Source of the DNA: Chelativorans salis
GTDB lineage: Bacteria; Pseudomonadota; Alphaproteobacteria; Rhizobiales; Rhizobiaceae
NCBI RefSeq assembly: GCF_025336525.1
Contig: NZ_JAOCZP010000003.1
Span: forward strand, 186,001-250,000
Direction: 5' to 3'
Length of the DNA: 64,000 nt
Positions 1 through 26,097 of this stretch are shown piece after piece. The stretch's first letter is position 1, and every line of letters starts with the position of its first letter. The notes beneath the pieces are model-generated. The model was not told the DNA's origin. It worked only from the letters and a program-made list of their open reading frames with translations, and did not search any database. The translations under genes were made by a program, and so were the position numbers.

Positions 1-662
1 AACGTGCCGGAAATGCGCTTGAAGCCGGCTTTCTCCGCGCCGGTCAGCAAAGCGTAGTTGGCTGTGCGGATGTAGTCGAACAGATAGGCGGCCCCCGAAT
101 AGTAGGTGACCACGTCGAGCAGAGCGAAAGCCAGGTTCGCCGCCCCCAGCACAAGGATAAGGCTGGCAAGACGGGCGAGCGATCCGACGCGTCGAAGATA
201 GGCGAATGTGAAGGCAAAGCAGATCAGCCCGCCCAACGCATAGACAGCCTGTGTTATGTTGTTGGTCGACGGTGCCAACGGAACCATGGAGATGGAGCTG
301 CGTCCCGCCGCTATCCGTTGTACGGTCATCGTCTCCGCCATTCCCTCCAGAAGCCGCGGAAAGAACACCGCTGTGGCGAGCGCATAGACGGTCAAAAGCA
401 GAAGCCAGAATCCAGCACGCGGTGCAGCCACGGCAGCCAGCACCGGCCCCTCGCCGAACGCCATGAACAGGCGCAGACCGTAGAAGACCAGGAACAGGCT
501 CGGCACGAGCACCGAGGCCCCTCCCAGCCCCGACAGGCTGAACGCCGCCGCTGCACCGAAAAGCGTGGACAGAACCATGATCGAGAAGGCCCGGTGGATC
601 GGGGCAAACAGAACGGCCACCCCGAGAACCATCGTCACAAAGCCGAGCAACTCGATATTCAT
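1..662 (-). CDS. O-antigen ligase / Wzy-like polysaccharide polymerase, C-terminus cut off by the window edge
   Basis: Translating the complement from the ATG at 660-662 gives about 220 uninterrupted residues that run off the left end, starting MNIELLGFVTMVLGVAVL. It is very hydrophobic, with at least five membrane-spanning stretches, and near the edge reads KAGFKRISGT. Such a Lys-Arg-Ile-Ser-Gly-Thr stretch in a loop after several helices is typical of O-antigen ligase/Wzy polymerases, which join repeat units at the periplasmic face of the inner membrane. It is divergent from the GH16 gene and matches the polysaccharide genes at 20-32 kb. The family call rests on topology and this motif; the frame and membrane nature are seen directly. 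Confidence 0.7.
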   Translation of the reverse strand, partial: MNIELLGFVTMVLGVAVLFAPIHRAFSIMVLSTLFGAAAAFSLSGLGGASVLVPSLFLVFYGLRLFMAFGEGPVLAAVAAPRAGFWLLLLTVYALATAVFFPRLLEGMAETMTVQRIAAGRSSISMVPLAPSTNNITQAVYALGGLICFAFTFAYLRRVGSLARLASLILVLGAANLAFALLDVVTYYSGAAYLFDYIRTANYALLTGAEKAGFKRISGT

Positions 663-835
663 GCGGTGATCCTTGCCCCTTGCCCGGGCCCCTTGTCCGG
701 AAGGAGCATAAATTATCACCGTTCCCCCGCGCCGTCGTTCCACCCCAGGTACCGCTTATGATGTATGGCGCGCCTCATTCGCCCGGCTGGTTACGGCCTT
801 CGCCCGTGGAGTATGTTGGTCGGGGAGGTACCAAT

Positions 836-1710: not shown

Positions 1711-1962
1711 GCTTTTGGAACAGTGCCGCCTCGGTGTGTGAAAAATGCCCCCGCCGAATGAGCAAAAATACCATTCGACGTACAGCTTCCGGTCAGGAAG
1801 CCCTCATCCGGATGAATATCTGTTCCTTTTCTCCCACGCATGAAATCCTTGCACCAGAGAACGTGAGAAACCATTGATTTTCTTGCATTCTATCTGAAAC
1901 ACCAAGGTTCTCAGGGGCAATCGCCACAGTCGGCGCAGATCACCTTGAAGGTGGGTGCTGGA

Positions 1963-3906
1963 ATGAACAGCAATGAAGGGCGGGCGGAATATCTTAATGG
2001 ACGCGTGACAGCGGCGCGCCCTAATTTTCAGGCACGAAACAGCTATGATAGCCAGCGCAGCATTCATTCTCTGGTGAGTGAGCAGGCAGCGCTGCGGCCG
2101 TATGCGATAGCCGTTCAATTTGGCAGCACCGGCCTCACCTACACCGAGCTCGACCGTCTGTCCTCCGCGCTTGCCGGTGAGCTGATGCGGCTGGGTGTGA
2201 CGAAGGGTGATGTCATCGGCCTCTTCTTGCCGCGAGCACTGAACACGATAGTCGCCAAGCTGGCGATCCTCAAAGCTGGCGCAGCCTATGCCCCCTTCGA
2301 CCCCTCCTATCCCGCCAATCACCTCGGCTATATGATCGGCGACTGCAATCCCAAGCTTATTCTGGTCGACAAGGAGAGCATTGGTGCGATCCGCGCGATC
2401 CCGACCGTCAGCGCCGTGACCGACCTCGGTTATCTCCTGGAAAGCGCGGAAAAAGGCCTGCCTCACGACTTGCCCGATGTCTCAGGAGGCGACGCCGCCT
2501 ATGTCATGTATACCTCCGGCTCGACCGGCCGGCCGAAAGGGGTCGTTATCCCCCACCGCGGCATAGCCCGCCTCGTACGTGACCAGAACTACATTCGTTT
2601 CGAGCCCGACGATGTCGTCCTGCACACGGCGACGATCTCCTTCGACGCGGCGACCTTCGAGATCTGGGGCGCGCTTCTCAACGGCTCCACCCTGCTCGGA
2701 ATAGGTGATCGCAAGCTGTCGCTGCCACGCGTCGCGCAGACCATCGATGACAATCGTGTCACCGTCATGCTGCTGACGACGGGTCTTTTCCATTTGCTGG
2801 TTGATCACAGGAGTAGCCGCCTTGCCTCTTTGAGGCATGTGCTCTTCGGCGGCGAGGTTGCCTCGTCGGATCACGCCAAGCGCTTCCTGCGAGGCAACCC
2901 TGATTGCATCCTCACCAATGCGTACGGTCCTACGGAAGTGACCGTCATGGCATCTGCCTACACCATACCGCCGGATTTCGAAGGCGATGAGATTCCCATC
3001 GGATGCAGCATCGCCCATAGCCGCGTCCATATCCTCGACGAGGACCTCCGTGAGCTTCCGCCGGGTTCGGAGGGGCAGCTGGCGGTATCGGGCGATGGCC
3101 TGGCGATCGGCTATCTCAACCGGCCCGACCTGACGCGCGAGCGTTTCGTCACCATCCATACCGCCGAAGGAAACTCTCTGCGCTGCTACCTCACCGGCGA
3201 TCTCGCCATGATGGACAGCGACGGGATACTGCACTTCAGGGGACGCCTGGATCGGCAGATCAAGATCGACGGGAAGCGCATAGAACTTGACGAGATCGAG
3301 GCTGCTCTGCGCCGGGACGCACGCCTGGCCGATGCCGTGGCTGACTGTCACAAGAACAGCGCCGGCACCAAACAGATCGTCGCCTATCTGCGGCCTCACC
3401 CCCCGATGACGATGAGTGAGGCCGATTTCACGGCGGCGATCCTCTCGACATTGAAGACGGTGCTGCCTTCGCACATGATCCCGAGCCGGGCGATGGTGCT
3501 CGACCGGTTCCCCATGAACCAGGCCGGCAAGATCGACCGCTCCCAGCTCCCGCCTCCCCCGCCGGAAGCAGCCGTGCCGACCGCACCGCTGCCAGCGGGT
3601 GGCGATACCGAAGTGCTGCTCACGAGACTCTGGGAGCAGGTGCTTGGCAGGACCGGCGTAGGCCTGGATCAGAACTTCTTCGATCTCGGCGGCACGTCCA
3701 TGCAGCTCATCCGCGTACATGCCGCGCTCGAGGAATCCCTCGGACGTTCGATCGACGTCGTGGCGGTCTTCCAGCATCCCAACATCCGCAGCCTGGCACG
3801 CCATCTCGACAGCGGCAACCCAAGCGCGGCGCCCGCTACCTCTGTCCACGCACGGGCGGATCTCAGGAAAAGGATGATGTCTCAATTCCGCCGGAGCACC
3901 TCATGA
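1963..3906 (+). CDS. NRPS loading protein: adenylation domain plus peptidyl carrier domain
   Basis: 647 residues. The ATG at 1963 is preceded by GAAGGTGG at a good distance; an in-frame TTG at 1945 is less likely. The A domain (about 30-545) has A3 YTSGSTGRPKGV, A4 FDAATFEIW, A5 NAYGPTE, A7 YLTGD, A8 GRLDRQIKIDGKRIEL and the A10 lysine in NQAGKIDR, so it looks catalytically complete. The PCP (about 555-625) has S579 in DLGGTSMQL for phosphopantetheine. There is no condensation domain, as expected for a starter module. Asp at code position 235 predicts an alpha-amino acid substrate; the code read by eye is about DAFLLGAVMK, a hydrophobic pocket. The stop overlaps the next start as ATGA. Confidence 0.93.
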   Translation: MNSNEGRAEYLNGRVTAARPNFQARNSYDSQRSIHSLVSEQAALRPYAIAVQFGSTGLTYTELDRLSSALAGELMRLGVTKGDVIGLFLPRALNTIVAKLAILKAGAAYAPFDPSYPANHLGYMIGDCNPKLILVDKESIGAIRAIPTVSAVTDLGYLLESAEKGLPHDLPDVSGGDAAYVMYTSGSTGRPKGVVIPHRGIARLVRDQNYIRFEPDDVVLHTATISFDAATFEIWGALLNGSTLLGIGDRKLSLPRVAQTIDDNRVTVMLLTTGLFHLLVDHRSSRLASLRHVLFGGEVASSDHAKRFLRGNPDCILTNAYGPTEVTVMASAYTIPPDFEGDEIPIGCSIAHSRVHILDEDLRELPPGSEGQLAVSGDGLAIGYLNRPDLTRERFVTIHTAEGNSLRCYLTGDLAMMDSDGILHFRGRLDRQIKIDGKRIELDEIEAALRRDARLADAVADCHKNSAGTKQIVAYLRPHPPMTMSEADFTAAILSTLKTVLPSHMIPSRAMVLDRFPMNQAGKIDRSQLPPPPPEAAVPTAPLPAGGDTEVLLTRLWEQVLGRTGVGLDQNFFDLGGTSMQLIRVHAALEESLGRSIDVVAVFQHPNIRSLARHLDSGNPSAAPATSVHARADLRKRMMSQFRRSTS

Positions 3907-6900
3907 ACGATACGTCACCTCAGGCGGAAGCCCTTGCCGACGAGGGCATAGGCAGCGTCGCGATCATCGGCATGTCCGGCCGCTTCCCCGGCGCACACTC
4001 CGTCGATGCACTTTGGGATCTCATCGCGCAGGGCAGACACGCATTCGCGCATTTCCCGCCCGAAGAGATCGAGGACGCCTTCGGCGAGGACGTTCGTGCC
4101 GCCAAGGACTACGTGCCGGCGAGGCCCCATCTCGATGATGTGGAGCTGTTCGATGCCGAGTTCTTCGGCATGTATCCGCGCGAGGCCGCCCTCCTCGACC
4201 CACAGTTTCGCATCTTCATGGAAATCTGCTGGGAGTCTATCGAAGGCGCCGGCTACGACCCCTATGCCTGCCCTGGCCAAGTCGGGGTCTTCGCAGGCTC
4301 GGCGCTTGCCACCTATCTCATCAACAATGTCCTGTCGGACCGCGAAAAGGCCGAGGCCTTCACCTCGAATTATCAGATCGGCATGTTTTCCGAGCTGATC
4401 GGCTCGATCAACGACACGCTCGCCACACGCGTCGCCTACAAGCTCAATCTGCGCGGCCCCGCCTTCACCATCCAATCCGCCTGCTCGACCTCGCTCCTGG
4501 CGGTGGCCCAGGCTTGCCAGAACCTTTTGACCTACAGCTGCGATATGGCACTGGCCGGCGGCGTATCGATCACCTTCCCTCAGAAGCGCGGCTATATCTA
4601 CCAGGAAGGCGGCATGGCCTCCCCGGATGGCTTCTGCCGCCCCTTCGATGCCGATGCGGCCGGCACTGTCTTCGGCAGCGGCGCGGGCGTTGTGCTCTTG
4701 AAGCGCCTCGATGACGCGCTGCGCGATGGAGACCACATCCACGCGGTCATCCGCGGCTACGGCGTCAACAACGACGGGTCTGGCAAGGTCGGCTACACCG
4801 CGCCGAGCGTGGAAGGCCAGGCCGAGGCTATCACTACCGCCTATGCAAGTGCCGGCGTCGATCCTGCCACCATCGGCTATGTCGAGTGCCACGGCACGGC
4901 AACGCCGCTGGGCGATCCTATCGAGTTCGCCGGCCTGAGGAAGGCCTTCGGCGATGTCTCTCAGAGATCGACCTGCGCTCTCGGCTCGGTGAAGGGCAAT
5001 TTCGGCCATCTGGACGCGGCCGCCGGCGTGGCGGGGCTCATCAAGGCGGCATTGGTGCTGCGCAACGCCAAGATCCCGCCCATGGCGAATTTCTCCGAAC
5101 CCAATCCGCATATCGATTTGGACGACAGTCCCTTCTACATCCCGCGGGCGCTGTGTGAGTGGCCGGCAGATGCCCCGCGGCGGCGGGCGGGCGTCAGTTC
5201 CTTCGGCGTAGGCGGCACGAATGTGCACCTCGTCCTGGAAGCGGCTCCGCCCGCTCCTTCTCTCGTAGAAGAATACAAAAAAGCAAATCACATTATTCCC
5301 TTATCGGCGCTGAATGAAGTATCTCTTGCAGGCATGCGTCGGAATCTGGCTGAGGCGCTCCGCCGCCGTCCGGACATCCCGCTTCCCGCCGTCGCCTTCA
5401 CGCTTCAGAACGGCCGGCACCATTTCGCGCATCGCACGGCGGCAATCGGCGCAAATGTGGAAGAAGCTGTCGCCGGCCTCGAGAACGAGCGTCCGCTCGC
5501 CGGCAAGGCGGAGGAAACGCCGCCGCCAGTCATTTTCATGTTTCCTGGCCAGGGCGCCCAATATGTTGGCATGGGCGGCGCGCTCTATGACAGCGAGCCC
5601 GAATTCGCCCGCTGGATCGATCACGGCGCCGGCCTTCTCGAAGCGAAGACTGGCATCGACCTGCGCCAATTCATCCGTCATGCGGGCGACCCCACCGAGG
5701 AAATGTCGGCCGCCCTGCGCGATACGAAGTTCGCCCAGCCCGCGCTCTATCTCATCGAATACGCGACGGCGCGCCTGTGGATGAGCCGCGGGCTCGTGCC
5801 TGCCGCCATGATCGGCCACAGCGTCGGCGAATTCGTCGCCGCTACGCTCGCCAACGTCATGTCTTTCGATGACGGGCTGCTTCTGGTGGCCAATCGTGGC
5901 CGGCTCATGCAGAAACAGCCCAAGGGTGCGATGGTCTCCGTTCGCGCCGGGGCCGAAACCGTGCGTGCTCATCTCGACGAGGGCGTGGAGATCGCCGCCG
6001 TCAACGCACCCAAGCTCTGCGTCATCTCAGGAACATTCGAGGCCGTGGATGCCGCCTGCGCGCGGCTGCAGGAGGCCGACATCGCCTTTAGCCGCCTGCA
6101 CACCTCCCATGCCTTCCATTCGGCCATGATGGATAAGGCGGCAGCCGCCCTGCGCAAGGAGACCGGCAAGCTCGCCTACGGCACGGCTACAATTCCCTAC
6201 GTTTCCTGCACGACCGGCGACTGGCAGACCGATGCTCTCGGCACCTCGCCCGACTATTGGGCACAGCACTGCCGCGATGCCGTCCGCTTCGCCGAGGGCC
6301 TTGCCACTGCATGCCGCGAAAAAAGGCCGGTCCTGCTGGAGGTTGGCCCCGGCCGAACTCTTTCCGTCTTCGCCGCGCAGACCATCAATCGCGGCGACCT
6401 GGCGGCGATCGTCCAGTCACTGCCCGAGCATGACCGGGCTTCCGCCGCGGCCACCACCTTCGCCGAGGCTCATGCGCGGCTGTGGATTTCCGGCTGCGAT
6501 CTGGACTGGCCACAACTGCCCATATCCGCTCAGCGGCGCCTTTCCCTGCCGACCTATGCCTTTCAGCGCCAGAAGCACTGGATAGAGGCGCCACGGCCGA
6601 GCCGGCAGTCCGTGGCAAACCCGCAAACACCCATCGTCGTCGAGGCCAGCGCGCCTCAGGCAAGCATGCCTCAACCGGCACACGCATACGGAACCGATAC
6701 CATGAATGCTGTCACGCAAGCTCCCTCCGAAAACAGGATCAAAAGGCTGGAAACGGCACTGCTTGCCCTTCTAGCCGAGATGTCGGGCGAGGAACTGGCG
6801 GCGGACGCTGCCGAGGCAACGTTCCTCGAACTCGGCTTCGATTCCCTCTTCATCGGCCAGTTCGCGCAGAAGCTCGAGAAGCAGTACAAGGTGAAGCTCT

Positions 6901-9900
6901 CCTTCCGCGAGCTTCTGAGCAGCATCCCGACCGTCGACGCCCTCGCCCGGCATCTGGACGCCGAGCTGCCGCCTGACGCGCTGCAGCCGGCTCCCGGCTC
7001 GGCGGTGCAAGCCCCCGTTCCTGCGACCCAGGCCCCGATGGTGCCCACAGCAACACCTTCCACGCCGGCGGCCACCGGGCTGGAGGGACTGTTCCAGTCG
7101 CAGCTTCAGATGATGCAGCAGCTTTTCGCCCGGCAATTGCAGGCGGCACAGACGCTGGGTATCGCGACACCGCCGCCAATACCACAGCAGACGAGCCCAC
7201 AGTCGACCGTCTTCGGCAATGCCCCCGCACCCGAAGGGGCCAAGCCCGCCGAAGCGGAAAACAGTTCCGGACGCCCGCGCCTCTATAAGCCCGGCATGCG
7301 CCTCGGCGACGGAGAGTTGACGCCGCAAAAGCGCGCGTTCATCGCCGAACTGTCGGAACGCTACTCCGCGAAGAACGCCAAATCCAGGGCCTTCACCGAG
7401 GCCAACCGCCACCGCCTGGCGGACCCGCGTGCAGCCTCCGGCTTCCGCGCCGAGTGGAAGGAGATTGTCTTTCCTGTCGTCTCCGACCGCTCCAAGGGCT
7501 CGCGCATCTGGGACATCGACGGCAACGAATATATCGACCTCGTCAACGGCATGGGCCAGACAGCCTTCGGTCATGCGCCCGATTTCGTCGTCAAGGCAAT
7601 GATCGACCAGGTGAACAGCGGCTTCGCCATCGGTCCGCAGACGCCGCTTGCCGGAGAGGTCGCCGAACTGATTGGCGAGATGACCGGCCATGAGCGTGTG
7701 ACTTTCTGCAACACGGGTTCGGAGGCGGTGATGGCCGCCATGCGGGTCGCCAGAACCGTCACCGGCCGCGAAAAGGTGGTCGTCTTCGGCAATGATTACC
7801 ACGGCCAGTTCGACGAAGTTCTGGTGAAGGGCCGTGGCCGCTCAGGCGCGCCCGCAGCGCTGCCGATCGCCGCCGGCATCCCGCCCACATCGCTTTCCAA
7901 CATGACGGTGCTTAGCTACGGCGCACCCGAAAGCCTTGAGTGGATCCGGGCCAACGCCGAAGACATCGCGGCCGTCATCATCGAGCCCGTGCAAAGCCGC
8001 CATCCGGAGCTGCGCCCGGTCGAGTTCGTGCGGGAGTTGCGCCGGATCGCCACCGAAGGCGAATTTGCGCTGGTCTTCGACGAGGTCGTCACCGGCTTCC
8101 GCGTCCATCCGGGCGGCATGCAGTCCGTCTGGGGCATCAAGGGCGACATGGCAACCTACGGCAAGGTGCTGGGCGGCGGCATGCCCATCGGCGTCCTTGC
8201 CGGTGACAGCCGCTTCATGGATGCCCTCGACGGCGGCCACTGGAACTATGGGGACGACTCCGTCCCGATGGTGGCGCCCACCTTCTTCGCCGGCACCTTC
8301 GTACGCCATCCGGTCACGCTGGCGGCGGCCAAGGCGGTGCTGCAGCATATCAAGGGCGAGGGCCAGGCCCTCTACAGCCAAGTCGCCGACCGCACGCAAC
8401 TGCTCGTGGAAGAGCTGAACGCCGATCTCAGCCGTCGCGGTATCGCCGGCAAGATCAATGGCTATGCAAGTTGGTTCGTAACGGACTTCGGCAGTCTCGA
8501 TCCCCTCGGCGCGCTGTTCTACCCGCACGTACGCATGCAGGGCATTCATGTGCAGGACGGCTACCCTTGCTTCCTCACCACCGTCCATACGGAGGAGGAT
8601 TTCCAGCATATAGCCGACGTCTTCCGCAACAGTCTCGATGCTCTCCAGACCGCCGGCATTCTGGCGCCTTCCGAGGAGAAATCGCTGGCCGCGGCACCCA
8701 TGCCCGTAGCAGGAGAGACCGTGAGCTCGGCCGAGCTCACAGAAGCGCAGAAGGAAATCTGGCTTGCCGCTCAAGCTGGCGACGAGGCCTCCTGCTCCTT
8801 CAATGAATCCTTCAACCTCACCCTTGAAGGCTTTCTGAACAAAGAGGCTTTTCGCCGCGCATTGGACTTGGTTATTGGACGTCACGATGCCCTTCACATC
8901 CGTTTCTCGCGCTCAGGCGAGCGGTTGGAGATCATCCCCGACTTCCGGATCAACATGGAGTTCCACGATCTCGCCGGAGATCCGGATCCCGAGGCCGCGC
9001 TTGAAGAGCTCGTCGCGGAGGAAGCCCGCACGCCCTTCGATCTTGTGACCGGCCCCCTTGCCCGCACTCGGCTCGTGCGCCTCGCCGCCAACCGGCACGT
9101 GCTCATCTTCACCGCACACCATATCGTCTGCGACGGCTGGTCGACCAACGTGATCGTCGAAGAATTGGCCGCGGCCTATTCCGCGTTCGTATCGAACCGC
9201 GAGCCCAACCTTCCGCCCGCGCTCTCCTTCGCCGTCTATGCAGGCAATCTCGCCAAGGCGGAGACGAACCCGACGACTGAGGACTATTGGCTGAAGCAGT
9301 TCGAGACGGTGCCGGAACTGGCGGACCTGCCGACCGACCGGCCACGCCCGGAGCGCCGGACATTCGCAGGTGGCACCTGCACCAGGCACATCGAAAAGGA
9401 GACCTATAAGCGCCTCAAGAAGGCCGGTGCGAAGAGCGGCGCCACCATGTTCTCGACACTGCTCGCCGCGCTCCAGGTCATGATAGCACGCCTTTCCGAC
9501 AGCACGGACATCGTCATCGCCGTGCCGTCGGCGGGCCAAAGCCTGCTCGGCGACCAGACCCTGGTCGGCCATTGCGTCAACCTCCTGCCCTTGCGCCAGG
9601 GGGTCGATACCGGCGCCTCGTTCGAAAAGCACCTGCGCGCGACGCAGCAAGGCGTTCTGCAAGCCTTCGAACATCAGGACTACACATACGGTACTCTGGT
9701 CCGCAAACTCGGCATCAGACGCGACCCGAGCCGCCTGCCGCTCACGGAAATCCAGTTCAACCTCGAGCGCATGTCCAGGAACGCAGGATTTGAAGGACTG
9801 TCGGCAAAGATCACGCCGAACCCCAAGGCCTTCTCCAACTTCGACATGTTCCTCAACATGATCGAAAGCGAGGACGGCATTCGCATCGACGTCGATTACA

Positions 9901-11912
9901 ATGGCGACGTTTTCGATCGGACGACCATCGAGCGCTGGTTGGGTCACTTCAACACCCTCGTCTCCGCTATTGCCGACGATATCGGTCGCAAGGTCGTGGA
10001 TCTTCCCCTGCTTTCCCACGATCAGGAGAATTGGCTCGTCAACGAGATCAATCAGACGGCGACCGAGTATGAGCGTGACCGCTTCGTCTTCGAGCTATTC
10101 GCCCGCAAAGTCAGCGAACGGCCCGATGCGATCGCCGCCGAGCACGATGGCGCGTCCATCACCTACGGCGCGCTCGAAACCAGAAGCAACCAGCTCGCCC
10201 GGCACATTCAGGCCAGGCTCTTCATACCGGGCCAACGTGTCGCCCTGGCGCTCGATCGGTCTATAGACATGCTTGTCGCCCTACTGGCGATAATGAAAGC
10301 GGGCCACGCCTATGTGCCGCTCGACCCCAACCACCCGGAAGCGCGCCTGCGGCAGACGATGGAGGCCGCGGACATCTCGGCTCTCGTCTGCGGCAACGAC
10401 ACGATCGCAAGGCTAGCCGCCAAGAACACCTGCGTGATCCGCATGGATACCGAGCGGACGAAGATCGACGCGCAGGATGCGGCCCCGCTGGAACTGCAGT
10501 TGGCAGACGCCGGCTCGGCCGCCTACATCATCTTCACCTCGGGCTCCACGGGTACGCCCAAGGGCGTCGAGGTGTCGCACCGCTCCCTGGTCAACTTTTT
10601 GACCTCCATGGCCAGGAAGCCCGGTTTCACGCCGCAAGACACGTTGCTTGCGGTAACGACCATCTCCTTCGATATCGCAGGCCTCGAGCTCTACCTGCCG
10701 CTGATCGTCGGGGGCAAGGTGGTCATCGCCGACCGTGCGCAGGTGCAGGATGGCTTCGCGCTTGTCGAACTCCTTAAGGCGTGCGGTGCAACAGTCCTGC
10801 AGGCAACCCCGACGCTGTGGCAGATACTTGTCGAGGCGGGCCTTTCGGATCAGCCGAGCCTGAAGATGCTGTCCGGCGGCGAGCCCTTGCCGAAGGAGCT
10901 TGCCCGTGGGCTTTTGAAGATCGGCGGCGAGCTATGGAACATGTACGGCCCGACCGAGACCACCATCTGGTCGTCGCTCGCCCGCGTCGAAGATGACGAC
11001 AACCAGATCCACATCGGCCATCCCATCGCCAATACGCAGCTCTACATCCTCGACAGCAACGACCGCATCGCCCCGGTGGGCGTCGTTGGTGAGCTCTGTA
11101 TCGGCGGTGACGGATTGGCGAATGGCTACTTCAACCGCCTGGACCTGACAGAGGCCGCTTTCCGGCCGGTGAGGATAGGCAGCAAGGTGCCCCGCCGGCT
11201 CTATAAGACCGGGGACGTCGGCAGGCGCCTTGCAGACGGAACGCTGCAGCTACTCGGCCGGCGTGACAACCAGATCAAGCTGCGCGGCTTCCGCATCGAG
11301 CTCGGTGAGATCGAAGCAGTGATCGGCAAGAAGGACGGCATCCGGCAATGCGCCGTCGTCGCTGCCAAAAACAGGAACGGCGATCGCCAGCTCGTCTGCC
11401 ATTTCGTACCGGCGGACGGACGTGAACCCTCAGCGGAAGAGCTCACCTCCCACGCCAAAGACCATCTGCCAGGGCACATGGTGCCCAGTTTCTGGATCGC
11501 TACGACCGAGCTTCCACACACGGCGAACGGCAAGCTCAACCGCAAGGCGCTCGAGAGGTTGGGCGTTCCGCAGCGCGAGGCCGCCCCCATCCGCACCAAG
11601 CCGCGCACGCCGATGGAGGAGAGACTGTCGCACATCTGGAAGGAGGTGCTGGAGATCGCAGAGATCGGCGTCGACGAAAACCTCTACGCCCTGGGTGCGG
11701 ATTCCTTGAGTATCTTCCGCATCGCCGCACGCATGATGGATGCCGGCCTGCCGCTCGAAGCCAAGCATCTCCTGCGCCACCCGACCATCTCTGAGCTGGC
11801 AAGCTACGCCGAAGAGCAGGACGAAGCGCCGATCAACGGGACGGCGCCGCACATTCCCTCGCTGAGGGAGTTCCGAAACGGCGCACGGCGCGGAATGGAG
11901 AGGCCCTCATGA
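3903..11912 (+). CDS. Hybrid PKS-NRPS megasynthase: KS-AT-ACP-aminotransferase-C-A-PCP
   Basis: 2669 residues. KS (about 19-445) has the C194/H330/H369 triad in SACSTS, HGTAT and NFGHL. AT (about 545-880) has GHSVG with S640 and HAFH at 736-739, a malonyl-type signature. ACP (about 945-1030) has S981 in LGFDSL. A PLP aminotransferase of the GSA-AT type (about 1175-1590) has K1421 in TYGKVLGGG. C (about 1608-2040) has intact HHIVCDG (H1739, H1740). A (about 2060-2565) reads DILQLGMIWK, a known glycine-type code. PCP has S2601. There is no KR, DH or ER, so the beta-keto product should pass to the aminotransferase, as in iturin/mycosubtilin and McyE-type systems. Both ends overlap neighbours by ATGA. 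Confidence 0.95.
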   Translation: MNDTSPQAEALADEGIGSVAIIGMSGRFPGAHSVDALWDLIAQGRHAFAHFPPEEIEDAFGEDVRAAKDYVPARPHLDDVELFDAEFFGMYPREAALLDPQFRIFMEICWESIEGAGYDPYACPGQVGVFAGSALATYLINNVLSDREKAEAFTSNYQIGMFSELIGSINDTLATRVAYKLNLRGPAFTIQSACSTSLLAVAQACQNLLTYSCDMALAGGVSITFPQKRGYIYQEGGMASPDGFCRPFDADAAGTVFGSGAGVVLLKRLDDALRDGDHIHAVIRGYGVNNDGSGKVGYTAPSVEGQAEAITTAYASAGVDPATIGYVECHGTATPLGDPIEFAGLRKAFGDVSQRSTCALGSVKGNFGHLDAAAGVAGLIKAALVLRNAKIPPMANFSEPNPHIDLDDSPFYIPRALCEWPADAPRRRAGVSSFGVGGTNVHLVLEAAPPAPSLVEEYKKANHIIPLSALNEVSLAGMRRNLAEALRRRPDIPLPAVAFTLQNGRHHFAHRTAAIGANVEEAVAGLENERPLAGKAEETPPPVIFMFPGQGAQYVGMGGALYDSEPEFARWIDHGAGLLEAKTGIDLRQFIRHAGDPTEEMSAALRDTKFAQPALYLIEYATARLWMSRGLVPAAMIGHSVGEFVAATLANVMSFDDGLLLVANRGRLMQKQPKGAMVSVRAGAETVRAHLDEGVEIAAVNAPKLCVISGTFEAVDAACARLQEADIAFSRLHTSHAFHSAMMDKAAAALRKETGKLAYGTATIPYVSCTTGDWQTDALGTSPDYWAQHCRDAVRFAEGLATACREKRPVLLEVGPGRTLSVFAAQTINRGDLAAIVQSLPEHDRASAAATTFAEAHARLWISGCDLDWPQLPISAQRRLSLPTYAFQRQKHWIEAPRPSRQSVANPQTPIVVEASAPQASMPQPAHAYGTDTMNAVTQAPSENRIKRLETALLALLAEMSGEELAADAAEATFLELGFDSLFIGQFAQKLEKQYKVKLSFRELLSSIPTVDALARHLDAELPPDALQPAPGSAVQAPVPATQAPMVPTATPSTPAATGLEGLFQSQLQMMQQLFARQLQAAQTLGIATPPPIPQQTSPQSTVFGNAPAPEGAKPAEAENSSGRPRLYKPGMRLGDGELTPQKRAFIAELSERYSAKNAKSRAFTEANRHRLADPRAASGFRAEWKEIVFPVVSDRSKGSRIWDIDGNEYIDLVNGMGQTAFGHAPDFVVKAMIDQVNSGFAIGPQTPLAGEVAELIGEMTGHERVTFCNTGSEAVMAAMRVARTVTGREKVVVFGNDYHGQFDEVLVKGRGRSGAPAALPIAAGIPPTSLSNMTVLSYGAPESLEWIRANAEDIAAVIIEPVQSRHPELRPVEFVRELRRIATEGEFALVFDEVVTGFRVHPGGMQSVWGIKGDMATYGKVLGGGMPIGVLAGDSRFMDALDGGHWNYGDDSVPMVAPTFFAGTFVRHPVTLAAAKAVLQHIKGEGQALYSQVADRTQLLVEELNADLSRRGIAGKINGYASWFVTDFGSLDPLGALFYPHVRMQGIHVQDGYPCFLTTVHTEEDFQHIADVFRNSLDALQTAGILAPSEEKSLAAAPMPVAGETVSSAELTEAQKEIWLAAQAGDEASCSFNESFNLTLEGFLNKEAFRRALDLVIGRHDALHIRFSRSGERLEIIPDFRINMEFHDLAGDPDPEAALEELVAEEARTPFDLVTGPLARTRLVRLAANRHVLIFTAHHIVCDGWSTNVIVEELAAAYSAFVSNREPNLPPALSFAVYAGNLAKAETNPTTEDYWLKQFETVPELADLPTDRPRPERRTFAGGTCTRHIEKETYKRLKKAGAKSGATMFSTLLAALQVMIARLSDSTDIVIAVPSAGQSLLGDQTLVGHCVNLLPLRQGVDTGASFEKHLRATQQGVLQAFEHQDYTYGTLVRKLGIRRDPSRLPLTEIQFNLERMSRNAGFEGLSAKITPNPKAFSNFDMFLNMIESEDGIRIDVDYNGDVFDRTTIERWLGHFNTLVSAIADDIGRKVVDLPLLSHDQENWLVNEINQTATEYERDRFVFELFARKVSERPDAIAAEHDGASITYGALETRSNQLARHIQARLFIPGQRVALALDRSIDMLVALLAIMKAGHAYVPLDPNHPEARLRQTMEAADISALVCGNDTIARLAAKNTCVIRMDTERTKIDAQDAAPLELQLADAGSAAYIIFTSGSTGTPKGVEVSHRSLVNFLTSMARKPGFTPQDTLLAVTTISFDIAGLELYLPLIVGGKVVIADRAQVQDGFALVELLKACGATVLQATPTLWQILVEAGLSDQPSLKMLSGGEPLPKELARGLLKIGGELWNMYGPTETTIWSSLARVEDDDNQIHIGHPIANTQLYILDSNDRIAPVGVVGELCIGGDGLANGYFNRLDLTEAAFRPVRIGSKVPRRLYKTGDVGRRLADGTLQLLGRRDNQIKLRGFRIELGEIEAVIGKKDGIRQCAVVAAKNRNGDRQLVCHFVPADGREPSAEELTSHAKDHLPGHMVPSFWIATTELPHTANGKLNRKALERLGVPQREAAPIRTKPRTPMEERLSHIWKEVLEIAEIGVDENLYALGADSLSIFRIAARMMDAGLPLEAKHLLRHPTISELASYAEEQDEAPINGTAPHIPSLREFRNGARRGMERPS

Positions 11913-14698
11913 ACAAAATGGACCCTGCCGCGACATTCTCCGACGAGCGTCATGCCGTCGTCGCCGAGTTCCCTTGCACGCAGACACAGCTGCGCTGCTG
12001 GTTTCTCGACCAACTCAGCCCCGGCAACCCGGCGCTCAACGTCGCCGTGCGTTGGGAAATCCGCGGCACCTTCAAGATCGCCAGCATAGAGGCCGCCTTC
12101 CGGCAAATCATCGACCGGCACGAAATCCTGCGCACCCGCTTCATGGACGTCTCCGGCCGGCCGATCCAGCAGGTGGTCGATAAAGTCGATTTTAAGATGT
12201 CGGTGATCGACCTCAGGAATGTGCCTGCGGACCAGCGCGACGAGCGCATCCAATCCATCAGCCGTGAGACGGCGTGTGCGCCGTTCGATCTGCGCGTGCC
12301 AGGGCTTTTCCGCGTCACCTTCCTGATGGTGGAAAATGAACGCGGCTTCATCCTCATCACCGCCCACCAGACCTGCTTCGATGGCTGGTCGATCCGCGTG
12401 CTCGGCCGCGAGGTGGGTGAGGTCGCTTCGGCAATCGACGCCAACCGGAACCCCAGCCTTCCGGAGCTGCCCTTGCAATATGGCGACTTCGCCCTGTGGC
12501 AGGACGAATACCGCCGCAGCTACGGCTTCGAAGCCGAAAAGACCTACTGGCGCAGGCAACTGGCGGATGCTCCCTATTTCGAAGTCCCTCCCGACCGGCC
12601 ACGCGGGCACACCAAGACCAGCCGGGGCGAGATCCTATCGGCGGCGATGCCGCTTGAATTCGGCGAGCGCATCGACCAAGCCGCCCGCGCGCATCAGGTT
12701 TCCCTCTTCAGCTACGGCGCCGCTGTCATCAGTGCCGCATTGGGCCGGCTCACCGGCGAGAGGCAAATCCTGTTCGGAACGCAGATCGCCGGGCGCGACG
12801 AAGTGGATCTGGAAAATCTCATCGGCGTCTTCATCAACAACCTCGTCCTGCGCTTCGATGTAGCGGACGACCTGTCCTTTGCCGAGCATATCCGCCGCGC
12901 CAGCGATACGGTCGCCGCTGCTCTCAATCACCAGAAAATGCCGTTCAACAATCTGGTCGAGCTCATAAACCCGGCGCGGGATGCATCGCGGAATCCGCTG
13001 ATCTCGATCAACTTCAATCAGCAGAAGGCTTTTTTGGAGAATGCGCGCTACGGCGAGTTCGAGCTTATCAGCGCTCCTTCCCAATCGCCGGGCGTTGTCT
13101 ACGACCTCAACTTCATCATGATCGGCCGGCCGAACGGTTGGCGCATGTCGGTCGAGTACAACACCGACCTCTTCGATGCGGGCACTGCACAAGAGCTGCT
13201 GCGTCTCTGGCAGGATACCTACGAGCACGCCCTGACGGATCCGACCGCCAAACTCGGCTTGCCGAGTGTGCCCACCCGTCGGCGGGTTTCCAACGAGCTC
13301 ACTTCGGGCCCCACACAGCTTGAGAAAATTCTGGCAGAGCATCCCTGGGTCGCCGAGGCCGTTGCAATAGGTGCCGACACATCGGCAACTGGCCGCCCAT
13401 ACGGGTTCGTCGTGCCTTCGCCGACACTCGCCCATCCCGTCGAGGTGCTTCCCGAGCGCCTGATGGAGTTTTTGTCCACCCGCATTGAGGCCAAGGACAT
13501 GCCGGATGGCATCAGCGTTCTGCTCGCACTGCCGCGCACGGCCGCGGGCGGTATAGACCGGCAAGTGCTGAAGGTCCCTTCGTCCTTGCAGGCCAAGGAA
13601 CGCCCTGTGGTCGCGCCGACACCGGCAGGCAAGCGCCCCGCGACCGACAAGGAGCGCCAGCTAGCAGAGATATGGGCGGATGTACTCGGCGTGGACAAGG
13701 TGGAGGGATCCGACGATTTCTTCGCCCTTGGTGGCCACTCGCTGCTCGCCCTGCGCATGTTATCGGCGATGAGGGAGGCGTTCGGCGTAACTCCGGATCT
13801 CGCCCTCCTCTTCAGAGCACCCACCCTCACCGCCTTCTCCCGCGAAGCCTTCGGCGAGGAATTGCCTGCACCGGCAAGCCCCGAGCCAGCGCCCATGAAG
13901 CGATCCGCCTATTGGGAGACCTCGCTCTACAGGGAAGGCAACAGTGCGTACACCCTCTATACGCTCAATCACCCGTTCCTCTACTACCGCATGGCCAACG
14001 AGCTTGCCGAGGGAACGTCTGTGGTGAACCTCCACATGTTCGGCGCCGAGATCGACGACGAGCTTCGCGATCTACCGATGGAGCAGATCGTGGCCGATGC
14101 GATCGCCGCCATGGACCTTCGTCCCGATTCCGGTCCGGTCGCCGTCGTCGGGCTGTGCGTGAACGGCATCCTGGCGATCGAGCTGGCGCGACAGCTCCGC
14201 CGCCTCGGCCACCGCATCCAGTTCGTGGGCGTCATCGATAGCTGGGCGCCCGGCTATTTCCGCTCGCTCCCCCGCTTGAGACAGCTCCGCTGGACCATGG
14301 AAAAGCGCGCCAAGCGGCTCGCCTATTTCACCGGCAAGCTCATCGGCGGCAGGATGTCGCTGATCGATTACCTGAAGGAGTTCAACGCCACGCTGAAGCT
14401 CCTTGGTGCAAAAGGGACACCGAGCGAGGAGGAGCGGCAGAATGAGCTCGTCACCGACCTCCTGGTCGAGGCCTCACGCCGCTACCGTCCGCGGCCGATC
14501 ACAGGCGAGGACGTCCTGCTGTTCCGCAGCCAGGCAAACCACAAGCGCGCGAAAAAGCTCCTGTTCGGATGGCGCGGCTTCATCCGCGACGACACGCCGG
14601 TTTTTGATCTTAATGGATGGCACGAAGATTCGCTCAGCAGTGCCGGTATCAGCAAGCTGTCTTCGATCCTGTCGAGACGGCTGAACGTAGGGGGCTGA
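11909..14698 (+). CDS. Terminal NRPS protein: atypical C domain, A-domain remnant, PCP, Cys-type thioesterase
   Basis: 929 residues. C domain (about 18-440): the core motif reads H153-Q154-T-C-F-D158-G, so the second, catalytic His of HHxxxDG is Gln. Residues about 450-560 look like only the C-terminal subdomain of an A domain (HPWVAEAVAIG, then LPRTAAGGIDRQVL, where the A10 Lys is Gly); the ATP- and substrate-binding core is absent. PCP has S611 in LGGHSLLAL. The thioesterase (about 660-925) has GLCVNG, putting C750 where Ser normally sits, with D777 and H905 completing a triad. It should end the assembly line by hydrolysis, cyclisation or transfer; which one cannot be told. The next gene begins one base after the stop. 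Confidence 0.92.
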   Translation: MNKMDPAATFSDERHAVVAEFPCTQTQLRCWFLDQLSPGNPALNVAVRWEIRGTFKIASIEAAFRQIIDRHEILRTRFMDVSGRPIQQVVDKVDFKMSVIDLRNVPADQRDERIQSISRETACAPFDLRVPGLFRVTFLMVENERGFILITAHQTCFDGWSIRVLGREVGEVASAIDANRNPSLPELPLQYGDFALWQDEYRRSYGFEAEKTYWRRQLADAPYFEVPPDRPRGHTKTSRGEILSAAMPLEFGERIDQAARAHQVSLFSYGAAVISAALGRLTGERQILFGTQIAGRDEVDLENLIGVFINNLVLRFDVADDLSFAEHIRRASDTVAAALNHQKMPFNNLVELINPARDASRNPLISINFNQQKAFLENARYGEFELISAPSQSPGVVYDLNFIMIGRPNGWRMSVEYNTDLFDAGTAQELLRLWQDTYEHALTDPTAKLGLPSVPTRRRVSNELTSGPTQLEKILAEHPWVAEAVAIGADTSATGRPYGFVVPSPTLAHPVEVLPERLMEFLSTRIEAKDMPDGISVLLALPRTAAGGIDRQVLKVPSSLQAKERPVVAPTPAGKRPATDKERQLAEIWADVLGVDKVEGSDDFFALGGHSLLALRMLSAMREAFGVTPDLALLFRAPTLTAFSREAFGEELPAPASPEPAPMKRSAYWETSLYREGNSAYTLYTLNHPFLYYRMANELAEGTSVVNLHMFGAEIDDELRDLPMEQIVADAIAAMDLRPDSGPVAVVGLCVNGILAIELARQLRRLGHRIQFVGVIDSWAPGYFRSLPRLRQLRWTMEKRAKRLAYFTGKLIGGRMSLIDYLKEFNATLKLLGAKGTPSEEERQNELVTDLLVEASRRYRPRPITGEDVLLFRSQANHKRAKKLLFGWRGFIRDDTPVFDLNGWHEDSLSSAGISKLSSILSRRLNVGG

Positions 14699-14699
14699 C

Positions 14700-16346
14700 T
14701 TGCGCTTCAATGGCAAGGTTTATGTTCAGCCGGTCCTGGAGTGGACGGGCAAAAGCAACCGGCCTCCCCTTCGCATCGGCATCCTCGTCGGTAGCGAAAG
14801 TTTCGAGAACTGGGAGCTGCAGCTTTTCGACCGGCTGTTTGCCGATCCGCGCTTTGATCTCAAGGCCGTGCTGATACACCCGGGCGGCTATGGCCAACGC
14901 TCCACGACGCCGCTTCTTGGCCTCGTCGCAAAGGTCGACCGCCTGCTGTTCGCCCGTCAGCCTGCCTATCGTCCGAGCTATTTCGACGATATCCGTCAAC
15001 GGACGGAGTTCATCCGTCTTGATGAAGCTGATCGCGCCTACACGAACGGGTCACCGGCTTTGGAAAGGCTGCGCCTCGACCTTGTCCTGCGCACGATCCC
15101 TCGCGGGCTCCCGGATGCCTTCGTCGCCACGCTCCCGTTCGGCGAGTGGGCGTTGACGTTCGCCGATCTCAGATCCCGCACCGCAGACTGGTGTGGCTTT
15201 GCCGAGGTCGTCGCGGGCTCGCCGACGATGCAAATAGGGCTCAACGTCAATCATGGCGGAGGAAAACCCTTCGGGCAGATCGCTTCGGCCGCGTTCAACC
15301 CAAAGTTCAGCGCCGCCAGAAATTCGGCTTTTCTCAAAGAAAAGGCGGTGATCCTGCTCATGAGGGAGCTGCGGCGCCTGGCGGATACCGGAAGCCTCAC
15401 ACTTGGGCACGGCACGGCTTCAACCGATCCTGCCGGCCCGCCGGACACGGCAGAGGTCGCACGCTATGTCGTCGGACTGGCGCGCGCGGCTACCTCACGC
15501 GCCACGAGGGAGCTACGGAGAAAGGCTGGCATCGAAACGGCGGTCTGGACGCTTTTTAGCGGCGCCGGCTCCGTCGAGCGCTTTGATCCGCATCTCGCCG
15601 TCGAACTTCCGCCCGCAAAAGACTCGATCAAGGCCGATCCCTTTCTCTTCAGACACGGCGGCGACTGCTATGTCTTCTACGAGAATTATGCGGTCGGTGA
15701 CCACAAAGCCCATATCGCTGTCGGCAGGCTGAAGGGTGATGGCATCGAGCCGCTCGGCCCGGCGATAGAGAGCACCAGCCATCTCTCCTTTCCGTTCGTA
15801 TTCCGCAACGGCAAGGGCATTTTCATGATGCCGGAAACACATCAGGAAAAGCGCATAGAGATTTGGCGCTGCACCGACTTTCCCTTGAAATGGGAACTCT
15901 ATGCGACTGCGCTCGACGGCTACTCGGCCGCCGACAGCACTCTTTTCCGGCGCAAAGGCAAGTGGTGGCTTTTGTCCAATCTGTCAGACCACCACGCGTA
16001 CGAGGATCATTGCAGCGAGCTCCACGCATTCGAGGTCGACGGGCCCAGGCTGTCGCGCATCGTCCCGCATGCGCGTAATCCGGTAGTCATCGGCAGCACC
16101 GTCGCCCGCAATGCCGGCCGGGTCTTCGCCAGCCATGGCCGCCTGTTCCGGCCATCGCAGAACAACGCCTACGGCATTTATGGCTATGGTCTCAACATCA
16201 TGGAGATCCAGGAGCTGAGCCGCGAGGTCTATCGCGAGACCTGCATCAGGACGATCATTCCCGACTTCAAGCCCGGCCTCGCCGGCTGCCACCACTTCGA
16301 TGCCGCCGGCGGCCGCTACATCCTCGATGCGCGGTTGAGCAGCTGA
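14700..16346 (+). CDS. Formyltransferase-like / GINT1-type beta-propeller protein
   Basis: 548 residues, starting with TTG at 14700; AGGGGG six bases upstream supports this start. The N-terminal third (RIGILVGSESFENWELQLFDRL) resembles the Rossmann part of formyltransferase-like proteins, but no clear formyltransferase catalytic motif was found. The C-terminal half (from about 295) has repeated blade-like segments such as KADPFLFRHGGDCYVFYE and GIFMMPETHQEKRIEIWRC, typical of the domain found in glucosamine inositolphosphorylceramide transferase 1. In bacteria this domain usually sits in polysaccharide clusters, which suggests a role on a sugar. It is fourth in the NRPS operon, so it may link the peptide to a glycan; that is inference. 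Its 3' end overlaps the convergent PPTase by 31 bases. Confidence 0.75.
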   Translation: MRFNGKVYVQPVLEWTGKSNRPPLRIGILVGSESFENWELQLFDRLFADPRFDLKAVLIHPGGYGQRSTTPLLGLVAKVDRLLFARQPAYRPSYFDDIRQRTEFIRLDEADRAYTNGSPALERLRLDLVLRTIPRGLPDAFVATLPFGEWALTFADLRSRTADWCGFAEVVAGSPTMQIGLNVNHGGGKPFGQIASAAFNPKFSAARNSAFLKEKAVILLMRELRRLADTGSLTLGHGTASTDPAGPPDTAEVARYVVGLARAATSRATRELRRKAGIETAVWTLFSGAGSVERFDPHLAVELPPAKDSIKADPFLFRHGGDCYVFYENYAVGDHKAHIAVGRLKGDGIEPLGPAIESTSHLSFPFVFRNGKGIFMMPETHQEKRIEIWRCTDFPLKWELYATALDGYSAADSTLFRRKGKWWLLSNLSDHHAYEDHCSELHAFEVDGPRLSRIVPHARNPVVIGSTVARNAGRVFASHGRLFRPSQNNAYGIYGYGLNIMEIQELSREVYRETCIRTIIPDFKPGLAGCHHFDAAGGRYILDARLSS

Positions 16347-17122
16347 TTGTCGGGCGAGGCTCGTAGAACACGGGCCGCAAGCGGCATTTCCTCCCGCACA
16401 CTTTCTGCCGTTTCGTCCGTCCGGTAATGCAACGAGACATCGTTGTCGGCCGTCAAAGCCGCCATCGCACCCACGAAGCCTGCCGGCAGGGCCAGGTTGA
16501 GAAGCCGCCATTGCGCCGGCGCTTGTGCATCGCCCTCAAGCCGCAGCAGCCTTGGTTCGCCAACCGAATCGATCGACACGTCGAAGGCTTCGAGCGGCAG
16601 GGAAAGCCCCGCCCCGTGCGCCTTGACGAAGGCCTCCTTGCGTGTCCAGCACCGGTAGAAGGCTTCGAGATAATTGCCCCGCCGGACGCCGCGGAGCGCC
16701 AGGCGTTCGCTGGGTGAGAAAAAGTGACCCGCCACGTCTTCCTTGAGCGGCACGATCTTCTCGATATCGATGCCGACATGATACCTGTCCGACACCGCCA
16801 GTACCGCCATGCCGGCGGCATGGCTGAGATTGAAATGCAGCGGCGGTCGCGAGACCGCCAGACGCGGCTTCCCGAACACGTTGTAGGCGAAAGAAAGCCG
16901 CCTGGCGGGCACGCCCAGATAGCGGCCGATGATCTCGCGCAGCTTGCCCCGCCCGACGATGAAGCGCAGGCGATCGCGCTCATGCACAAAGCGTGAGGCG
17001 CGTGCGAACTCCCCATCGCTGAGCGCCGTGACGTAGCGCGGCAGGTCGTCCATGCCAACGTCGAGTGGCCAACGCCAGATATCGACGATGTCCGGGCCGA
17101 TGGTGAGGGGTCTATACCGCAT
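16316..17122 (-). CDS. 4'-phosphopantetheinyl transferase, Sfp type
   Basis: 268 residues from the ATG at 17120-17122, which has GGAGG seven bases upstream; an in-frame start farther up lacks such a site. It carries the family motifs VGIDIEKI (Mg-binding Asp and Glu) and WTRKEAFVKAHGAGL, plus LHFNLSHA near residue 95. It moves phosphopantetheine from CoA to the Ser of carrier domains, so it should activate the four carrier proteins encoded next door (S579, S981, S2601, S611). Its start overlaps the end of the DegT gene by 11 bases, so the two are probably co-translated. Confidence 0.95.
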   Translation of the reverse strand: MRYRPLTIGPDIVDIWRWPLDVGMDDLPRYVTALSDGEFARASRFVHERDRLRFIVGRGKLREIIGRYLGVPARRLSFAYNVFGKPRLAVSRPPLHFNLSHAAGMAVLAVSDRYHVGIDIEKIVPLKEDVAGHFFSPSERLALRGVRRGNYLEAFYRCWTRKEAFVKAHGAGLSLPLEAFDVSIDSVGEPRLLRLEGDAQAPAQWRLLNLALPAGFVGAMAALTADNDVSLHYRTDETAESVREEMPLAARVLRASPDNQLLNRASRM

Positions 17123-18290
17123 AGGAAAGCCTCCTCGCCGGATTGGCCCCGCTCGCCATCCGCCGCGCAATAAAGGCCACCAGGGGCGATGGATAGTTCT
17201 CGCCTAGGCTGATGCGGCAAGTGCGCCGCAGGATATCGAGCGTGCGTGCGCACATGTCTGGCGTGTACTCGATCCTGGGCGACGCCCAGGCGAAGGGGTT
17301 CATCTTGGGATGGGCGGCACGCTGTTCGAGAATGGGCACCCAGTTGGTGTAAACGTGACGGCTCGAATCGTAGAGCCTGTAGACCCCACGCCGGTTGCGC
17401 CCGGCAAAGTGCTCCGCTTCCTCCGGACTCTCGAAGATCAGGTGCAGCCCTACCGCATTCTCCACATCGTTGTGCGGGCCGACCCGTATGGCAGGTGAGG
17501 AAGCCAGGATGCGCGACATGAGCCGATAGTGCTTGCGCATGCGGCGGATCATCGGGTCGAGCTTCGCGAGCTGGACGTTGAGCATCGCGCCCTGGATCTG
17601 GCTTGCCTTCAGGTTCACGCCGAAGAAATGCGGCTCGTTGTCATTGTCGAGATGACCGCGGAAGATCGCGCCCACGTCATGATACATCCGTGCGCGGGCG
17701 AAATAGCGGTCGCTGTTGGTAACAACTGCTCCGCCCTCGCCGATGTTGATGTTCTTGAACTGGTTGAAACTGAAGGCGCCGATATCACCGATCGTGCCGA
17801 CGCGTCTTCCCTTGTAGGTGACGCCGACGGCCTGACAGGCGTCCTCGATGACGAGGAGCCCGTGCTCTCGGGCGATCTTCATGATCCGGTCCATGTCGCA
17901 GACCATGTTGGCCATATGCACCGGCAGGATGGCACGCGTGCGCGGCGTGATCTTGCGCACGATATCGGCCGGATCCATCGTCAGCGTCTGATCGATGTCG
18001 ACAAGAACGGGAACAGCCCCGACAGCAAGGGGTGCTGCGGCGGTGGCGATCCAGGTATAGGCTGGCACCAGCACCTCGTCCCCCGGCCCCACGCCGGCCG
18101 CAGCGAGCGCACAGGTCAGCGCGCCTGTCCCGCTGCTTACCGCGAGCGTATGCTTGACCCCGAATTTCTCCGAATAATCGGCCTCGAACCGCGTCAACGG
18201 CCCCTCGCCTCCGCCGCCGTAGCGGGCGAGACGCCCCGACATCATGACCCGCCCGACGGCGAACCACTCCCGCAACCCGACCCTTGCCAT
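17112..18290 (-). CDS. DegT/DnrJ/EryC1/StrS-family PLP aminotransferase
   Basis: 392 residues if started at the ATG at 18290; an in-frame GTG at 18371 would add 27 residues of low-complexity sequence and cannot be excluded. The fold-type-I family is clear: SSGTGALTCAL (PLP phosphate contact), VIEDACQAVG, and the Schiff-base Lys in FSFNQFKNINIGEGGAV. These enzymes usually aminate keto-sugars in polysaccharide or antibiotic pathways. Here it is paired with the phosphopantetheinyl transferase and faces the NRPS operon, so the substrate could be a nucleotide sugar or a biosynthetic keto acid; the sequence does not decide. Confidence 0.9.
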   Translation of the reverse strand: MARVGLREWFAVGRVMMSGRLARYGGGGEGPLTRFEADYSEKFGVKHTLAVSSGTGALTCALAAAGVGPGDEVLVPAYTWIATAAAPLAVGAVPVLVDIDQTLTMDPADIVRKITPRTRAILPVHMANMVCDMDRIMKIAREHGLLVIEDACQAVGVTYKGRRVGTIGDIGAFSFNQFKNINIGEGGAVVTNSDRYFARARMYHDVGAIFRGHLDNDNEPHFFGVNLKASQIQGAMLNVQLAKLDPMIRRMRKHYRLMSRILASSPAIRVGPHNDVENAVGLHLIFESPEEAEHFAGRNRRGVYRLYDSSRHVYTNWVPILEQRAAHPKMNPFAWASPRIEYTPDMCARTLDILRRTCRISLGENYPSPLVAFIARRMASGANPARRLSYAV

Positions 18291-18371
18291 TGCTTGCTTC
18301 CCCGAAATGCCCGATGGCGCTGCGGCGGCGGCGCCTGTCGATATCACCGTCGCCTGCAGGATAACTCCCAC

Positions 18372-21067: not shown

Positions 21068-21123
21068 CGTCGTGGTCCTGCCCTTGCTCGATGAACACCT
21101 TTCTGACCGGTTGCCTGCTGTGC

Positions 21124-26095: not shown

Positions 26096-26097
26096 GG

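Follow-up and report, generated by a model that had tools for sequence, protein, structure and literature searches.

What does a compact polyketide synthase-nonribosomal peptide synthetase (PKS-NRPS) line make, and what for, when its neighbours are genes of polysaccharide assembly? The question is raised by a 64,000-nucleotide window of the genome of the soil bacterium Chelativorans salis (contig NZ_JAOCZP010000003.1, positions 186,001 to 250,000; coordinates below are those of the window) in which three overlapping genes encode such a line. PKS-NRPS lines are usually interpreted as makers of free small molecules, and the original prediction took this one for a stand-alone natural-product line yielding a beta-amino, probably beta,gamma-diamino, acyl-glycine. 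It missed that the neighbouring genes, in the window and in nearly all of the clade's loci that were read, are exopolysaccharide (EPS) genes. Its chemistry appears right up to the acyl-glycine and its context incomplete: the evidence favours, without proving, decoration of an EPS. As a whole, the explanation we prefer, in which the line is both dedicated to an EPS and decorates it, seems to us evenly balanced between right and wrong.

Domain order, active sites and substrates

Three open reading frames (ORFs) on the forward strand make up the line (1945-3906, 3903-11912 and 11909-14698), with a 4-base ATGA overlap at each of the two junctions; the first has an upstream in-frame TTG at 1945 and, at 1963, the in-frame ATG from which it had been predicted to start. 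Pfam matches, with E-values from 3e-9 to 3e-86 and far beyond chance, placed AMP-binding and PP-binding in gene 1; ketoacyl-synt, Acyl_transf_1, two PP-binding stretches, Aminotran_3, Condensation, AMP-binding and AMP-binding_C in gene 2; and Condensation, AMP-binding_C without AMP-binding, PP-binding and Thioesterase in gene 3. This established the predicted order of adenylation (A)-peptidyl carrier protein (PCP) / ketosynthase (KS)-acyltransferase (AT)-acyl carrier protein (ACP)-aminotransferase (AMT)-condensation (C)-A-PCP / C-(A remnant)-PCP-thioesterase (TE). On the three proteins Pfam reported no ketoreductase, as had been claimed, and no dehydratase or enoylreductase either. The A remnant is the small C-terminal subdomain alone (residues 471-547), 20 residues past the C domain.

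The active-site motifs are intact in the KS (QSACSTS, HGTATPLGDP, GNFGHLD), AT (GHSVGEF and HAFH), ACP (LGFDSLF), AMT (YGKVLGGG), first C domain (HHIVCDG) and all three PCPs, and they are also intact in the clade rows covering these domains. We take HAFH to mark a malonyl-type AT, and with the domain order this agrees with the single malonate extension proposed before. The AMT is a class III aminotransferase with its pyridoxal phosphate Lys, located between ACP and C on the same protein as KS and AT. Its best solved relative is the AMT of mycosubtilin synthase (6kfm; E 2.9e-120, 405 bits), compared with 176 bits for the best glutamate-1-semialdehyde aminomutase match.

Concerning the substrates, the code of the second A domain (A2), DILQLGMIWK, is the same in 32/32 Hyphomicrobiales rows; codes of the type DILQLGxIWK presumably select glycine, as had been predicted. 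The first A domain (A1) carries DAFLLGAVMK in the window, which we read as a hydrophobic, Leu-like alpha-amino acid code, and 12 different codes across the same 32 rows. All 32 keep the Asp235-type first and the Lys517-type last residue, a pair that we take as the mark of an alpha-amino-acid A domain. Three further codes, again with Asp and Lys, occur in Loktanella, Rhodobacter and Jannaschia, and the relatives G277 and G436 share DAFWLGGTFK, presumably of Val type. The common code DAVNIGVCIK (7 rows) matches no familiar substrate code. The solved A domains closest to A1 are both modules of linear gramicidin synthase A, at similar scores that say nothing about its specificity. Because the A1 codes vary yet always keep Asp and Lys, the starter is read as an alpha-amino acid that probably changes from one species to another and is Leu-like in the window, with the remainder of the line apparently fixed. 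The amino-acid starter of the original prediction is thereby supported, and a non-amino-acid starter of the McyG kind was rejected on the same two residues. Around the KS-AT-ACP-AMT-C-A-PCP relative of G582 (L080-L081), no separate A-PCP match was found in the 40 kb read; its starter may be supplied from elsewhere.

In the chemistry that would follow, A1 loads an alpha-amino acid, KS-AT-ACP extends the amino-acyl starter once with malonate and the AMT converts the beta-keto group to an amine, the domain order leading to the predicted beta,gamma-diamino acid. With a Leu starter this would be 3,4-diamino-6-methylheptanoic acid ("aminostatine"), to which C-A2-PCP would join glycine to give 3,4-diamino-6-methylheptanoyl-glycine. 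The phosphopantetheinyl transferase encoded nearby (Table 1) would activate the carrier domains. We consider the chemistry as far as a beta-amino, probably beta,gamma-diamino, acyl-glycine to be probably correct.

Linkage to polysaccharide loci

By its gene content, the locus around the line is of the Wzx/Wzy EPS type, with flippase, initiating sugar transferase, glycosyltransferases (GTs), Wzz/kinase and Wza all present. The Wzy/ligase-like protein at the left end of the window (512 amino acids, 10 transmembrane (TM)-like segments) gave no Pfam or NCBIfam match; a polysaccharide pyruvyltransferase gene adjoins its gene outside that end.

The line is not a singleton but one of a family, with the cluster present in Chelativorans, Nitratireductor, Rhizobium, Sinorhizobium/Ensifer, Ciceribacter and others. 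At E<1e-100 the third protein was found in 16 of 394 genomes family-wide and 2 of 385 class-wide, its own genome counted in each. The trait is scattered, yet tightly linked. We searched flanks of about 10 kb by tblastn with the window's flippase, sugar transferase, GTs, Wzz and Wza, scoring a locus as linked when at least one match reached at least 80 bits. Conserved co-localisation was established in 28/29 Hyphomicrobiales loci longer than 20 kb (28/31 with short loci; those without a match were L023 and L027, which are short, and L015, which is cut at one end) and in 5/5 Rhodobacterales plasmid loci, two of them from one species. The count leaves out L033 (9 kb, same clade) and L037, L038 and L077, all three EPS-linked.

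Eight more distant AMT-PKS loci of other bacteria served as controls and gave no match (0/8), even at E 1e-3, in a search that is insensitive to diverged genes: G277, whose EPS locus was recognised by Pfam, yielded a single 43-bit match. A Pfam scan of 20 flanking ORFs in four controls, part of their ORFs, found no polysaccharide-assembly domain; it found an MFS transporter in L036 and an outer-membrane efflux protein in L032. No polysaccharide genes are listed in the annotated stretches of L051, L054 and L055. In L051, a Variovorax sp. RA8 plasmid, a distant AMT-PKS/NRPS pair is followed by two TIGR04325 methyltransferases, with no EPS genes; there the methyltransferase may act on the peptide, not on a sugar. 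G436, G582 and G277 also lie in polysaccharide loci, the last according to Pfam.

In a KS-AT tree of 49 rows, 40 of the 41 EPS-labelled rows fell together, 39 of them at 100/100 and the fork with G277 at 82/96; L015 received its label from its clade, no EPS gene being seen on its 22 kb. The remaining row, L052, is EPS-linked but outside that grouping, where long branches make its placement unsure. None of 500 shuffles clustered the EPS-linked rows as tightly, a result to which near-copies contribute. We judge it likely that the line is dedicated to the polysaccharide pathway.

Release of the chain and alternative readings

The motif of the last C domain (C3) in the window is HQTCFDG, with Gln in place of the second His of HHxxxDG. 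The altered HQxxxDG was found in 34/38 C3 rows and HHxxxDG in 4/38, as well as in G436, G582 and G277. The TE nucleophile, on which the original prediction is silent, is a Cys (GLCVNG) in 37/37 readable rows, a count without L033, whose TE lies in broken reading frames; in the TE alignment C102 is invariant (23/23 rows), and an Asp and a His are conserved with it. From the strands of a structural model, the invariant Asp129 directly follows strand 6 (122-128), the strand after the nucleophile helix. The Ser of the third PCP (PCP3) is retained throughout the clade rows that were read (LGGHSLL; AGGHSLL in L018, LGGHSLA in L030). Because the C domain of the third protein is usually altered, release onto an amine was tentatively assigned to the PCP and the Cys-TE.

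L030 (Peteryoungia aggregata) has HHxxxDG in C3, though its KS-AT groups with HQ relatives, and no other Hyphomicrobiales row has a TE so divergent (about 41% identity to the window); its third gene has possibly been replaced. In G277 the third module, C-A(Gly)-PCP-TE(Cys), is complete (L082:13770-18887 and L090, contig C93, with C from residue 377), and this is apparently an ancestral form. As this distant relative holds the complete module, the A remnant of the window looks like the trace of a deletion. The stretch of G277 between the EPS genes and the line also encodes two Cupin_8-like proteins and an acyltransferase.

Beyond the acyl-glycine we infer PCP3 loading and the acceptor as well as the substrates. 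The third protein would take the chain onto PCP3, and the Cys-TE would form an acyl-S-enzyme and transfer the acyl group to an amine, whose most likely carrier is an amino sugar in the repeat unit of the polysaccharide. Oxidoreductase-aminotransferase pairs perform hydroxyl-to-amine conversion in aminoglycoside pathways, and the GMC oxidoreductase (alcohol to ketone) followed by the DegT aminotransferase could in this way turn a sugar hydroxyl into the acceptor amine. Once decorated, the unit would pass to the co-encoded Wzx, Wzz, Wza and putative Wzy for flipping, polymerisation and export, which would give a slime with extra positive charges. Covalent attachment of the product to the glycan, suggested by the gene neighbourhood, is about as credible as its opposite, and the Cys-TE is assigned as a transferase tentatively. 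We propose with similar reserve an alphaproteobacterial EPS family that bears a species-varying beta,gamma-diamino-acyl-glycine on an amino sugar, with the Cys-TE as a glycan N-acyltransferase. The flanks fetched for six Hyphomicrobiales loci and for G436 and G582, however, have neither the GMC nor the DegT gene. In layout the nearest precedent is the glidonin terminus, but it is described as using an active C domain (PMC10587159, in excerpt).

The same Cys, Asp and His would also suit a product that is free and diffusible, either the diamino-acyl-glycine itself or a lactam ring of seven or eight members, formed when the beta or gamma amine attacks the Cys-TE thioester. Its only tie to the biofilm matrix would be shared regulation or an action upon it. 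The chain itself holds amines suited to ring closure, a Cys TE is known to make a cyclic amide (PMC11536411, in excerpt), and a GH16 glycanase and Crp- and LuxR-type regulators, these at or just outside the left end of the window, are encoded nearby. Such a product would need no fixed linkage to Wzx, Wzz, Wza and GT genes, yet the linkage spans two orders plus G277, and no small-molecule exporter was found among the ORFs scanned at 1-33 kb; we consider it somewhat unlikely.

A different doubt touches the length of the acyl unit. The unit may be longer than the predicted acyl-glycine, since the third position in G277 is filled by a second Gly module that is complete; its third A domain is intact with the code DILQLGMIWK, read by eye, next to an HHxxxDG C domain. 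If A2 charged PCP3, whose Ser is kept, with glycine in trans and the altered C3 still condensed, diamino-acyl-Gly-Gly would form before release by the TE. The missing A core in the window's clade and the mostly Gln-substituted His suggest that this step was lost, and we find the longer unit unlikely.

Less probable still is that release, onto an amine that is either soluble or on the glycan, is the work of the last C domain, with the TE editing only. This would follow glidonin module 13, which is likewise laid out as C-A*-T-TE with its A core missing and whose C domain adds putrescine (PMC10587159, in excerpt), and the rows and relatives that keep HHxxxDG fit it; Gln at the catalytic His in 34/38 rows, the window included, and the constant TE Cys do not. 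A siderophore-like or microcystin-like product with polysaccharide genes as chance neighbours was rejected as very improbable, for although AMT-PKS-NRPS lines elsewhere make free peptides (mycosubtilin and microcystin) and a more distant relative in Agrobacterium lies among siderophore-annotated genes, linkage in 28/29 and 5/5 against 0/8 loci and the clustering on the tree oppose it.

Neighbouring genes and comparison with known systems

The features on which the EPS reading rests are given in Table 1.

Table 1. Coordinates of the assembly line, its domains and the surrounding genes in the window
Feature	Position	Strand	Basis or detail
N-terminal part of multi-TM Wzy/ligase-like protein	3..743	-	whole gene L048:17205-18743, beyond window
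GH16 glycanase, N-terminal hydrophobic (TM-like) segment	680..1675	+	Pfam; EglC-like, below NCBIfam cut-off
A1-PCP starter protein	1963..3906	+	A ~2077-3117, PCP ~3619-3807; phosphopantetheine Ser in LGGTSMQ
KS-AT(malonyl, predicted)-ACP-AMT-C-A2(Gly, predicted)-PCP protein	3903..11912	+	Pfam, motifs; KS ~3954-5093, AT 5532-6479, ACP ~6729-6971, AMT 7470-8495, C 8730-10031, A2 10098-11534, PCP 11622-11807
C*(HQxxxDG)-A C-terminal remnant-PCP-TE protein	11909..14698	+	Pfam, motifs, TE model; C 11966-13258, A remnant 13319-13549, PCP 13658-13840, TE 13853-14695
TE residues			Cys nucleophile GLCVNG 14150-14167; Asp in 14228-14254; His in 14612-14635
GINT1_N-family protein	14700..16346	+	Pfam; starts 1 base past end of assembly line
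4'-phosphopantetheinyl transferase	16316..17170	-	Pfam ACPS; HetI-like NCBIfam match below cut-off; conserved neighbour
DegT/DnrJ/EryC1-family sugar aminotransferase	17112..18371	-	Pfam; WecE/PseC-like NCBIfam matches below cut-off
GMC-family FAD oxidoreductase	18577..20262	+	Pfam
TIGR04325-family methyltransferase	20249..21214	-	NCBIfam above cut-off
Wzx-type oligosaccharide flippase	21936..23582	-	Pfam; TM-like segments
Initiating bacterial sugar (phosphoglycosyl) transferase	23906..24622	-	Pfam Bac_transf
GT4 glycosyltransferase	24803..26443	-	Pfam
GT2-like glycosyltransferase	26098..27003	-	Pfam just under curated cut-offs (26.3 of 27, 23.0 of 23.3 bits); conserved neighbour
Wzz/BY-kinase-type chain-length and export protein	26990..29371	-	Pfam; TIGR01005 match below cut-off
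Wza-type polysaccharide export protein (Poly_export + SLBB)	29396..30742	-	Pfam
GT4 glycosyltransferase	31045..32202	+	Pfam

The GINT1_N protein adjoins the line in all Hyphomicrobiales genome loci save the cut or short L015, L023 and L027, and was not found in the Rhodobacterales loci, G436, G582 or G277. Its model has an alpha/beta N-terminal half and a C-terminal five-bladed propeller of the GH43/GH130 type, whose matches filled the lists in a fold comparison; a sequence search among solved structures gave no relative. By eye the N-terminal half resembles the formyltransferase fold, without the usual catalytic His. Farther from the line lie a 1392-amino-acid ORF matching cytochrome P450 and DyP peroxidase C-terminal models (L048:6786-10964, about 5 kb past the pyruvyltransferase gene), a 703-amino-acid protein combining RNase_T exonuclease, CBS and DUF294 nucleotidyltransferase domains (36498-38609) and a 1656-amino-acid ORF with repeated Pfam Apolipoprotein matches, that is, amphipathic helical repeats (50338-55308).

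Among the matches listed in the open-licence literature we found no polysaccharide-linked NRPS or beta,gamma-diamino PKS product and no characterised product of the window's line, in agreement with the earlier statement that no Hyphomicrobiales product of this design has been described. The genome paper on Rhizobium sp. SL42 reports, in the part available, an 'NRPS, T1PKS' region with no product given (PMC12993520); it is probably the window's cluster, which lies on an SL42 plasmid. As far as the excerpts go, the genome papers on two cluster-carrying strains mention only NRPS/T1PKS or PKS and NRPS predictions (PMC12993520, PMC6256449).

If a polysaccharide is what the line serves, a set of regions predicted as 'orphan NRPS/T1PKS' in rhizobia and roseobacters would be cell-surface chemistry, which would explain the lack of a known product. 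It would also yield a rare natural beta,gamma-diamino acid, a natural system for joining assembly-line products to sugars and a way for an assembly line to produce a cationic matrix polymer. In rhizobia, nodulation and attachment involve surface polysaccharides, and for that reason a cationic, species-variable substituent would be a direct candidate for recognition or adhesion.

Compared with known systems, rhizobial Wzx/Wzy-dependent EPS loci have the same flippase, sugar transferase, GTs, Wzz-kinase, Wza, pyruvyltransferase and GH16 glycanase, but none with a PKS-NRPS is described among the literature matches listed. In MycA/ItuA of mycosubtilin and iturin, as in the window, an AMT beta-aminates a carrier-bound beta-keto chain within a PKS-NRPS protein; the starter there is a fatty acyl group, whereas the window has an A-PCP with an amino-acid code, which would leave a gamma amine, and lies in an EPS locus. 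Microcystin synthetase presumably shares the order A-PCP (McyG) then KS-AT-ACP-AMT-C-A-PCP (McyE), but with an aryl starter without amine, many more modules and a free peptide as product; the KS-AT of the Planktothrix relative L055 lies far from the window's clade on the tree, with no EPS genes nearby.

Glidonin module 13 has the same order of C, core-less partial A, T and TE as gene 3, but its C domain is active with His and its TE part has two GXSXG motifs (PMC10587159, in excerpt), whereas the window has an HQ C3 and a single Cys TE. The TE of AB3403 from Acinetobacter baumannii (4zxh) is among the closest solved structures to that of the window. The C-A-PCP-TE order of AB3403 is like the complete third module of G277, but its product is uncharacterised and the solved protein has no PKS or AMT part. 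The available excerpt of PMC11298585 gives the AB3403 TE a Cys nucleophile with Asp after strand 6, and places the Asp of the SulM and ObiF Cys thioesterases after strand 7. The window's TE shares the Cys with SulM and ObiF but has Asp129 after strand 6 instead, and release of their type, as a beta-lactone or beta-lactam, is disfavoured by that position.
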